Source: a virus | DNA length: 43,911 nt | Strand: one strand, 5' to 3' | IMG/VR virus record: IMGVR_UViG_3300042884_001048 | Span: 1 to 43,911 of that record | In this document: in pieces, positions 1 through 25,306 of the stretch | How the letters are laid out: each line of letters begins with the position of its first letter | Position numbering within the stretch: position 1 is the stretch's first letter | Notes under the pieces: model-generated | What the model saw: only the letters and a program-made list of their open reading frames with translations | The model's database searches: none | Told to the model about the DNA's origin: nothing | Translations under genes and position numbers: made by a program

Positions 1-82
1 GAATATCACCGTCAATTTCCTTAATAACTCTTCTAATTAATTTAGATAAATCAGCTTCGGTTAATCTTATTGTTTTTTTCAT
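1..82 (-). CDS. Partial small protein with conserved MKKTIRLTE leader
   Basis: This is the first 27 codons of a minus-strand gene running off the left edge. It starts at the ATG at 80-82. The visible protein begins MKKTIRLTEADLSKLIRR and continues VIKEIDGDI. This leader is nearly identical to that of the complete gene at 129-449, and the DNA upstream is also duplicated, so the two are tandem paralogs. L7-T-E9 and I20-K-E22 fit the (L/I)-x-E cleavage consensus of the T4 prohead protease gp21, so a capsid-targeting leader is possible. That role is inference, because the body of the protein lies outside the window. Confidence 0.7.
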   Translation of the reverse strand, partial: MKKTIRLTEADLSKLIRRVIKEIDGDI

Positions 83-98
83 AATATATTTGTTTTTT

Positions 99-107
99 TA
101 TAAATAT
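99..107 (-). promoter_or_regulatory. Candidate late-promoter box ATATTTATA
   Basis: On the minus strand ATATTTATA ends 16 nt before the ATG at 82. The same box at the same 16-nt spacing precedes the paralog at 449. It belongs to a recurrent element found before most structural genes here. Confidence 0.45.
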
Positions 108-128
108 AACGACAATTGTAAAAAATTT

Positions 129-449
129 TTATTTATTATAAATACACTTTGCTGTTTCAGTTGTAAGATTTGTATAATATCTAGCTTTATCAAAAAAGTC
201 CATGTTTTTAGTTTTTTCGTCTATTATACTTTTAGCCCCTGCAAGACAACTTTTAAGATTTGTCATTGTTTGTCCTGATTCTGTATTTAATGTTTTACAA
301 GAACTAATTTTTTCAAGGTCAGTTAACTTTAATTGTGATGCTGTTGCAACACACGATAAAACACCACCAATCTTTGAATTTTCTTCTCTTATTACTCGTC
401 TAACAATACGAGCTAAATCAGATTCCGTTAATCTTATTGTTTTTTTCAT
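129..449 (-). CDS. Small protein with conserved leader, possible internal virion protein
   Basis: This 106-aa protein of unknown function has its start set at the ATG at 447-449. An in-frame ATG 12 codons upstream is less likely, because the chosen start aligns exactly with the paralog at 82 and leaves the promoter-like box intergenic. Residues 1-22 form a basic amphipathic leader (MKKTIRLTESDLARIVRR, then VIRE). L7-T-E9 and I20-R-E22 match the (L/I)-x-E consensus cut by T4 gp21. The remaining 84 residues are polar with four cysteines (C33, C51, C68, C102), which could form two disulfides. It is probably co-oriented with the SNF2 gene upstream. A capsid-packaged internal protein is one interpretation; it could equally be a minor structural protein. 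Confidence 0.75.
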   Translation of the reverse strand: MKKTIRLTESDLARIVRRVIREENSKIGGVLSCVATASQLKLTDLEKISSCKTLNTESGQTMTNLKSCLAGAKSIIDEKTKNMDFFDKARYYTNLTTETAKCIYNK

Positions 450-465
450 AATATATTTATTTTTA

Positions 466-474
466 TATAAATAT
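466..474 (-). promoter_or_regulatory. Candidate late-promoter box ATATTTATA
   Basis: On the minus strand ATATTTATA ends 16 nt before the ATG at 449, between the SNF2 gene stop (491) and the small gene. The flanking bases are nearly the same as those before the paralog at 82. Confidence 0.45.
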
Positions 475-2313: not shown

Positions 2314-2826
2314 ATGGCTAATAAAATTCCTATTACAAGATTGGGTAAATTTTTCGGAGAGAACGATTTTGACCTTGATATTTCAATGGGAGAAGAGTGG
2401 TTGATTGGTGATATGAATTTCACTTGTGTGTTATATCGTATAGATAGGCAAAAGACAAAAACAGATGATGTCTATGGTGAAACCGTTTCGGACGGTATTA
2501 AATTTTTACCTCCAATTGAATTTAATGCGTTTGTTCAAGTATCGGCACCTGAAAATAAAATGATGGGGTCAACAAGAATGGATCAAATGGAGCCAGGGAA
2601 TATTAGAGTTTCTGTTTATCAAAAAACTTTAGATAATTTAAATGTTGATATAAATTTTGGGGATTACATTGGTTACTATGAAACTGAAACTTTGGTAAGG
2701 TACTATACGGTTAATAATGATGGTCGTGTTGTGTCAGATAATAAACATACCTATGCAGGATATAAACCATTTTATCGTACAATAAGTGCGTCTCCTGTTG
2801 GGCCAAATGAATTTAAAGGATTATGA
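2314..2826 (+). CDS. Neck protein, gp14-like (putative)
   Basis: This 170-aa protein is probably part of the head-tail neck. The central segment (DDVYGE at about 49-54, then IEFNAFVQV, then IRVSVYQKT and a GDYIGYYET segment) follows the layout I know from T4 gp14-type neck proteins. In those, a (L/Y)-x-GE motif precedes an aliphatic strand and a late membrane-free beta region. It is shorter than T4 gp14 (256 aa). It is the first gene of a plus-strand cluster ending in a gp15-like tail terminator, and T4 places gp13, gp14 and gp15 together. The stop overlaps the next start as ATGA. The gp14 assignment is by pattern and position, not by full alignment. Confidence 0.55.
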   Translation: MANKIPITRLGKFFGENDFDLDISMGEEWLIGDMNFTCVLYRIDRQKTKTDDVYGETVSDGIKFLPPIEFNAFVQVSAPENKMMGSTRMDQMEPGNIRVSVYQKTLDNLNVDINFGDYIGYYETETLVRYYTVNNDGRVVSDNKHTYAGYKPFYRTISASPVGPNEFKGL

Positions 2827-3263
2827 AAATACTATTAAAAGAATCACAAACTAATGAATTAATATCTTTTATAAAAAAAGACCCTAATTTATTAATAAAA
2901 AAACAAGTTAAAGTTTATTATGATATTACAAGACATATGTTTTCTGTTACATTTTCTGGTATTGTTGTATTAAAGGCAGATTACGTTAGATTAAAAAATG
3001 TTAAATTTTTAGTGGGGGAAAAGGGAAAAGAAAAAGTTAGGTCAGTAAAACAAAAAAATGTTCATGCTTATGTTACTGGAACATTGATTGATTATTGTGA
3101 ATATCCTTGTGAGGATATACCAAGTCCTGAAGGAAATGTTGTTATTAAATATAATCCTTATTTTGACGACTCATTTCTCATAAAAAAAACAAAAGAACCA
3201 ATTTTTAGTGCTGATGAGGTTGAAATGATAAATTTAGATGATAAAATATTTTTAGTTAATTAA
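2823..3263 (+). CDS. Hypothetical protein in neck operon
   Basis: A 146-aa protein I do not recognise. Its ATG overlaps the stop of the preceding gene (ATGA) and it ends 2 nt before the gp15-like gene, so it is translationally coupled within the neck operon. The N-terminus MKILLKESQTNELISFIKK loosely recalls the leader of the small genes at the left edge (MK, aliphatic-rich, then x-ES). The rest is predicted mostly beta: YYDITRHMFSVTFSGIVV, then LKNVKFLVG, then VVIKYNP. There is no signal peptide and no membrane segment. A minor neck or head-completion protein is possible from position alone. Confidence 0.7.
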   Translation: MKILLKESQTNELISFIKKDPNLLIKKQVKVYYDITRHMFSVTFSGIVVLKADYVRLKNVKFLVGEKGKEKVRSVKQKNVHAYVTGTLIDYCEYPCEDIPSPEGNVVIKYNPYFDDSFLIKKTKEPIFSADEVEMINLDDKIFLVN

Positions 3264-24640: not shown

Positions 24641-25306
24641 ATGTCAATAGATAAAAAAATATTAGAAGAAATTAGAAGATATAAAAATATCAATAAATAT
24701 ATCTTAGAACAAGAAACACCTCCGGGTGAAGAATTACCCCCACTTCCGGGTGGAGAGGTTGCTCCTCCACCTCCTGGCGGAGAATTACCACCACCTCCGG
24801 GTGGAGAATTGCCACCACCTCCGGGTGGAGAGGTTGCTCCTCCACCTCCAACCGAACCAACACCTCAACCAGTTGATATTAAAAATGATCCTGATGTGGA
24901 AGAAGTTGGAAATGAAACCGAAGAACTTGATATTACCGATTTAATTAACACACAAAAAACATTTGCTGACAAACAAGAAGAATATTTTAATAATTTATTT
25001 AATCAATTAAATACTCTTGAGACTAAATTAGGTGAAATGGATAATTTAGTTAATACGGTAAATAGTTTGGAATCAAAAATTGAAAAAATAAGACCAAAAA
25101 CTCCTGAAGAAAAATTGGAATTAAGAAGTTTAGATTCTGGACCGTTTAATCAAAAATTAAGTGATTTTTTTGATGACAAAATGGGAGAAATGGAAAAATC
25201 TGGAAAAAATGAATATGTTTTAACAACTAATGATGTTGAAGAATTTTCTCCAAATGAAATTAAAGGTAGTTTTAATGACTACGAAGACCAAGATGAAATG
25301 ATGTAA
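24641..25306 (+). CDS. Protein with leader peptide, Pro-Gly-Glu repeats and coiled coil
   Basis: A 221-aa protein in three parts. Residues 1-24 form an amphipathic leader (MSIDKKILEEIRRYKN, then INKYILEQ) with I7-L-E9 and I21-L-E23, both fitting the gp21-type (L/I)-x-E protease motif. Residues 27-77 are a proline-rich repeat, roughly five copies of PPPPGGE-L or PPPPGGE-VA, which would form an extended rod. Residues 90-221 are acidic and helical with heptad-like spacing (FADKQEEYFNNLFNQLNTLE, then LVNTVNSLESKIEKI), probably a coiled coil. A scaffold, internal virion protein or spacer is possible; no function is assigned. The start is 1 nt after the previous stop. Confidence 0.75.
   Translation: MSIDKKILEEIRRYKNINKYILEQETPPGEELPPLPGGEVAPPPPGGELPPPPGGELPPPPGGEVAPPPPTEPTPQPVDIKNDPDVEEVGNETEELDITDLINTQKTFADKQEEYFNNLFNQLNTLETKLGEMDNLVNTVNSLESKIEKIRPKTPEEKLELRSLDSGPFNQKLSDFFDDKMGEMEKSGKNEYVLTTNDVEEFSPNEIKGSFNDYEDQDEMM
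24718..24849 (+). repeat. Tandem 24-27 bp repeat encoding Pro-Gly-Glu units
   Basis: Five imperfect units of the type CTCCGGGTGGAGAATTGCC or CTCCGGGTGGAGAGGTTGCT. The block is much more GC-rich than the rest of the window. Units with near-identical DNA indicate recent expansion by recombination or slippage. Confidence 0.85.

Follow-up and report, generated by a model that had tools for sequence, protein, structure and literature searches.

Two adjoining genes share a leader peptide and a promoter box

The window analyzed here is a 43.9-kb piece (43,911 nucleotides, 29.6% GC) of a T4-like myovirus, in which tail sheath, tube, baseplate, and replication genes are present. At its left end lie two adjoining minus-strand genes that begin with a common 22-residue leader (Table 1). 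The initial annotation had described this arrangement, and it was borne out: the two leaders are identical at 16 of 22 residues and 52 of 66 nucleotides, and the L/I-x-E motifs claimed for residues 7-9 and 20-22 occur in both. The near-identical promoter boxes said to lie 16 nt from the starts were likewise found, with TTATATTTATA ending at this distance before both ATGs and with 33 positions agreeing, gap-free, within the 40 nt upstream of the two genes. The term paralogs, also used at that stage, is fair but loose, as the bodies are weakly similar (in their Cys pattern) and the proteins match at 37% over their whole length, leader included. The statement that nothing is known of the gene 1 body fits our searches, which gave no Pfam match and a marginal PHROGs hit (E 0.046). 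Relatives of gene 1 were found in seven viral records at 100-79% identity. The AlphaFold model of gene 1, which has a helix at residues 9-22 within the leader, is of low confidence (mean pLDDT 55) and too poor to be a basis for fold search.

In L051, another record of this virus, gene 2 is complete and encodes 117 aa. The region past the left end of the window is also covered by an 88-kb record that matches the whole window at 99.98% identity. There, a protein of 182 aa with a third leader type, MSNSRSQTKIRKTQQVNLLVE/Q..., adjoins gene 2, followed further on by a 364-aa protein and then by a protein homologous to one annotated as a putative head completion protein.

Table 1. Leader genes and associated features in the window (a slash marks the predicted cut).
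Feature	Position	Strand	Basis or remark
Leader gene 1, 106 aa, small Cys-containing body	129..449	-	ORF and leader
Gene 1 leader, 22 residues, MKKTIRLTESDLARIVRRVIRE/E...; LTE at 7-9, IRE at 20-22	384..449	-	Sequence
Gene 1 TATTTAT late-promoter-like box	467..473	-	TTATATTTATA ends 16 nt before ATG
Leader gene 2, cut by the window end, 27 aa visible	1..82	-	ORF; starts at 82
Gene 2 leader, 22 residues, MKKTIRLTEADLSKLIRRVIKE/I...; LTE at 7-9, IKE at 20-22	17..82	-	Sequence
Gene 2 TATTTAT box	100..106	-	Sequence; distance to ATG equals that of gene 1
221-aa protein, start MSIDKKILEEIRRYKNINKYILE/Q, I-x-E at 7-9 and 21-23	24641..25306	+	Orthologues
146-aa protein starting MKILLKE/SQ	2823..3263	+	Resembles short class-B leader MK(Y/F/I)(I/L)ITE/SQ

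The leader heads a large family of proteins with differing bodies

Viral contigs were searched for the leader with a degenerate DNA pattern, which matched at least 119 stretches. The search for further genes with this leader, which the initial annotation had envisaged, thereby yielded at least 174 non-redundant proteins (body identity under 50%) with differing bodies, encoded by uncultured relatives of the Bacteroidetes jumbo phages. The leader consensus, MKK(I/V)IRLTESDLxRIVKRVIxE (class A), is amphipathic. Among the matches listed, 2 to 17 class-A leader proteins were detected per large record, compared with the three internal protein (IP) genes of T4. No match to the leader was obtained by tblastn against 50,697 phage records; since a 24-aa positive control worked in this search, the absence is meaningful at that identity. 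A scan of bacterial genomes returned only seven stretches, in rumen Bacteroidales MAGs and small contigs, and a literature search found no report of the leader string or the leader family.

Leader residues 1-12 were set by the search pattern, and only residues 13-22 are unbiased; the latter are strongly conserved up to Glu22, with conservation at background level from residue 23-24 onward. Glu was present at residue 22 in 135 of 157 sequences, and most exceptions belong to a class with four extra residues. Of 172 sequences, 146 (seven of them with V/L/I-E-E) have an [ILV]-x-E motif whose Glu is residue 22, and in 23 others, which form the longer-helix class, this Glu is residue 26; the chance rate of this motif is 1.2% per position, and a few leaders lack it at the expected place. 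The P3 residue of the leader end site is I or L in 157 of 171 cases and V in about 8%, the latter outside the strict L/I consensus of T4. Q, E, S, N, or D usually follows the predicted cut, whereas the capsid-protein site described below has Ala there. Compared with all other proteins, L/I/V-x-E is modestly enriched at the N-termini, and for this reason the motif alone was not used to call leaders. Synonymous codon choice was found to be nearly as free in the leader as in the bodies, which indicates that the peptide is conserved and the DNA is not.

The bodies matched almost nothing when 134 leader proteins were compared with Pfam, PHROGs, and PADLOC. The Pfam matches fell into six families, each represented once; among them were an alpha/beta hydrolase and a peptidoglycan-binding protein. 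Thioredoxin, esterase-like, Cys-rich, and zinc-ribbon bodies were recognized, and most of the bodies are orphans.

Homologous bodies are joined to unrelated leaders

Leaders of other sequence were detected in the window and in related phages. The start of the 221-aa protein is likely another leader class, as we infer from its orthologues in three large phage records (G001, G002, and G007), which keep the start and mostly both sites. The start of the 146-aa protein may also be a class-B-like leader, although the resemblance is a weak one. The short leader classes MK(Y/F/I)(I/L)ITE/ and MKELIRHIIKE/ were found to be clustered. In the 304-kb record G001, about 50 candidates were counted, composed of 17 class A, 22 class-B-like, and 11 class-D-like starts, with the counts of the last two based on loose patterns. 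Positions 36813-55533 of G001 hold an array of MK(E/D)LI(R/K)(H/Y/Q)I(I/L)(K/R)E/ starts, an expanded short leader class.

In sister phages, homologous bodies were found behind unrelated leaders, with the similarity resuming directly after (I/L/V)-x-E. This is exemplified by (i) the pair VINE/NQEEVDRILDKIS and LIE/NQKYVDSLLDKIS; (ii) a TET... body preceded by VLKE/, VLME/, or ILKE/; (iii) the YMFF family, whose eight proteins have differing leaders that all end in VL-x-E; and (iv) the GRKV family, with three leader classes on three proteins plus a second conserved join, L-x-E/AEY. One body was present at 98% identity behind two different leaders. A complete thioredoxin follows one leader, its homology starting at residue 24 in alignment with the thioredoxin's own Met1, and one 502-aa leader protein is matched in another record by a homologue that bears no leader.

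Proteins in which a leader also occurs internally, or in which the first body is followed by another with its own leader, were observed at L057:4560-5147, L010:6625-7194, and L061:10431-10850, as well as at positions 235738-236826 and 214307-214906 of G011. Such proteins could be polyproteins or gene fusions.

Protease, capsid protein, and promoter boxes in related phages

The large relatives encode homologues of gp20, gp21, and gp23 and a gp22-like protein. A gp21-like protease had been named as a component to be sought, and a gp21-type profile matched 19 of 26 records, among them each of the 11 leader-bearing records that exceed 200 kb. It gave no match in four leader-bearing records of 107-171 kb, nor was the protease found in the window or in its 88-kb extension, the virus's own incomplete record; none of the records missed by the profile reaches 172 kb, and they may be fragments. 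In the relatives' protease, the catalytic motifs NHP (His) and SSRG (Ser) align with those of T4 gp21. In the capsid protein of the relatives, LINE/A or LISE/A aligns with SFLTE/A of T4 gp23, where the cut (FLTE/A) is known from the literature, and this LINE/A end is the same as the leader end VINE/. As a separate observation, the protease ORF of G011 (221939-223093, within L260 = G011:220001-240000) has an insertion directly before the catalytic NHP that begins CYKPDALILTETGWKTLEEVKVGD and ends HNFYVMCNNKTHWTSN; it looks like an intein.

The T4 late promoter has ATAAATA as its core. The reverse complement of this core, TATTTAT, nevertheless precedes structural genes on their coding strand in the window and its relatives. 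When TATTTAT was counted within 60 nt upstream of genes, it was present for 33 of 51 class-A, 28 of 51 class-B, 21 of 43 structural, and 5 of 41 DNA-metabolism genes, and for 20% of the others (Fisher P = 0.0003 for structural versus metabolism genes and 2e-7 for class A versus metabolism genes). The box is common to leader, terminase, protease, sheath, and tube genes. Thus, its upstream presence marks the leader genes as putatively late-type.

Comparison with known systems

The T4 prohead protease gp21 cuts after L/I-x-E, and the T4 IPs are targeted to the core by propeptides of 10-19 residues on diverse bodies (PMC9026906, PMC3012670). In T4, the gp21-cut capsid-targeting sequences (CTS) of IPI, IPII, and IPIII are, as here, short N-terminal peptides on unrelated small proteins, with an L/I-x-E end (e.g., MKTYQEFIAE/A, or the 19 residues of IPI ending in ITE/A), and homologues of T4 gp20, gp21, gp22, and gp23 are all present in the phage group. 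The class-A leader differs from the T4 CTS in its 22 residues and two motif sites, in being one of several leader classes, and in the Bacteroidetes hosts; furthermore, packaging of its proteins is putative. Visual comparison gave no clear sequence match between class A and the T4 CTS, while the short classes MKELIRHIIKE/ and MKYIITE/ resemble T4 MKTYQEFIAE/ and the gp24 start MAKINELLRE/.

The head and ejection proteins of phiKZ and SPN3US, which are likewise jumbo phages, also have N-terminal propeptides with several cut sites and Glu at P1, and SPN3US gp53 and gp54 are paralogues with identical N-termini (PMC5694885). In that system, however, the motif is of the A-x-E type, most propeptides are over 100 residues, and the protease is distantly related; the leaders depart from the A-x-E type, with I, L, or V at P3.

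Because G001, G002, and G007 (the two largest of which are 304-322 kb) have a reverse-strand bS21-like gene in the same head module, we infer that they match the bS21-encoding Bacteroidetes jumbo phages of Chen et al. 2022 (PMC9723584). In G001, this small gene, whose product reads like ribosomal protein bS21, is at 135003-135188 on the minus strand (L219:15003-15188), and equivalents are present in G002 and G007. A search of that paper's main text for leader peptides or internal proteins found neither.

By RecA, the nearest cultured relative is Flavobacterium phage vB_FspM_immuto_2-6A. This phage is without class A and has leader sequences of its own: gp230 and gp083 share the 22-residue leader MKKQILSEQF(K/R)RMQ(F/K)LAGIITE/S, and four more proteins have an FDLKKFLVE/NKLT-type start (NC_055915: 1803, 103806, 117631, and 118632). 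Two of these four lie just upstream of the terminase gene. Since immuto is cultured and has equivalent leaders, the capsid-targeting idea is testable.

The leader as a probable capsid-targeting propeptide

The initial annotation had proposed capsid-delivered proteins with swappable bodies and a T4-like leader. This proposal is partly supported: it fits the sequence tests, namely the extent of the leader, its exact (I/L/V)-x-E end, and the swapping of leaders at the junction, and is further supported by the protease of the relatives, the capsid-protein site, and the late-type boxes; removal of the leader and presence of the proteins in the virion are its predictions. Against it weigh the failure to find the protease in the incomplete record of the virus itself and in the four leader-bearing records of 107-171 kb, the residues that usually follow the predicted cut, V at P3 in some sites, and the few leaders lacking the motif at the expected place. 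We consider it probable that the leader is a capsid-targeting propeptide that works like the CTS of the T4 IPs. A leader that is never cut is unlikely, though its amphipathic character and predicted helix at residues 9 to 22 (in the low-confidence model) would suit a docking helix that tethers various proteins to one phage or host partner (e.g., a scaffold, the nucleoid, RNA polymerase, or the membrane). Glu22 would then be merely the end of the helix, a role that would need no identical P3 and P1 residues, yet wherever unrelated leaders stand on homologous bodies, the junction is preceded by (I/L/V)-x-E, and the longer-helix class shifts the motif to residue 26 and keeps it.

The location of the leader genes, mostly away from head genes, counts against capsid targeting and would suit a processed peptide that serves another place or protease, for instance a compartment built by the phage or a host protease acting in maturation; many of the bodies (e.g., thioredoxin and esterase-like) could also serve inside the infected cell. 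Such a destination is nonetheless decidedly improbable, as the end motif equals the cut site to be expected from the prohead protease and capsid protein of the phage itself, and the upstream box is common to structural genes. That the promoter box and leader travel together, and that tandem copies and leader-body-leader fusions exist, could also reflect a DNA cassette of promoter and gene start, spread by recombination or duplication, in which the leader peptide has no function of its own. This is very improbable indeed, for homologous bodies bear other leader classes of unrelated DNA, and leader residues are kept while synonymous codons vary; on the codon data, a cassette as the only explanation was rejected.

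If the leader is a capsid-targeting propeptide, it would dock the new protein on the prohead core, and the protease would cut after Glu22. A second cut may follow Glu9, or LTE at residues 7-9 may instead be part of the docking surface. The body would stay in the head with the DNA and be injected at infection, the bodies being exchangeable cargo, and several leader classes, unlike in sequence but with the same cut motif, would act in parallel. A broader and more tentative reading is that Bacteroidetes jumbo phages may possess a general addressing system in which several interchangeable N-terminal tags, removed by the protease, would direct some 50 different cargo proteins per genome to the head; leader-body-leader polyproteins, released within the capsid, would be among this cargo, and the injected set of uncultured phages might then be readable from sequence. 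Relative to T4, the scale, the multiple interchangeable leader classes, and the host group would be new.

Phage proteins injected with the DNA decide early takeover and counter-defence. If the leader marks cargo, the proteins that such phages inject into bacteria could be listed, and many orphan proteins would become a named, testable class. As a tag, the leader could also be used to load foreign proteins into the heads of Bacteroidetes phages.
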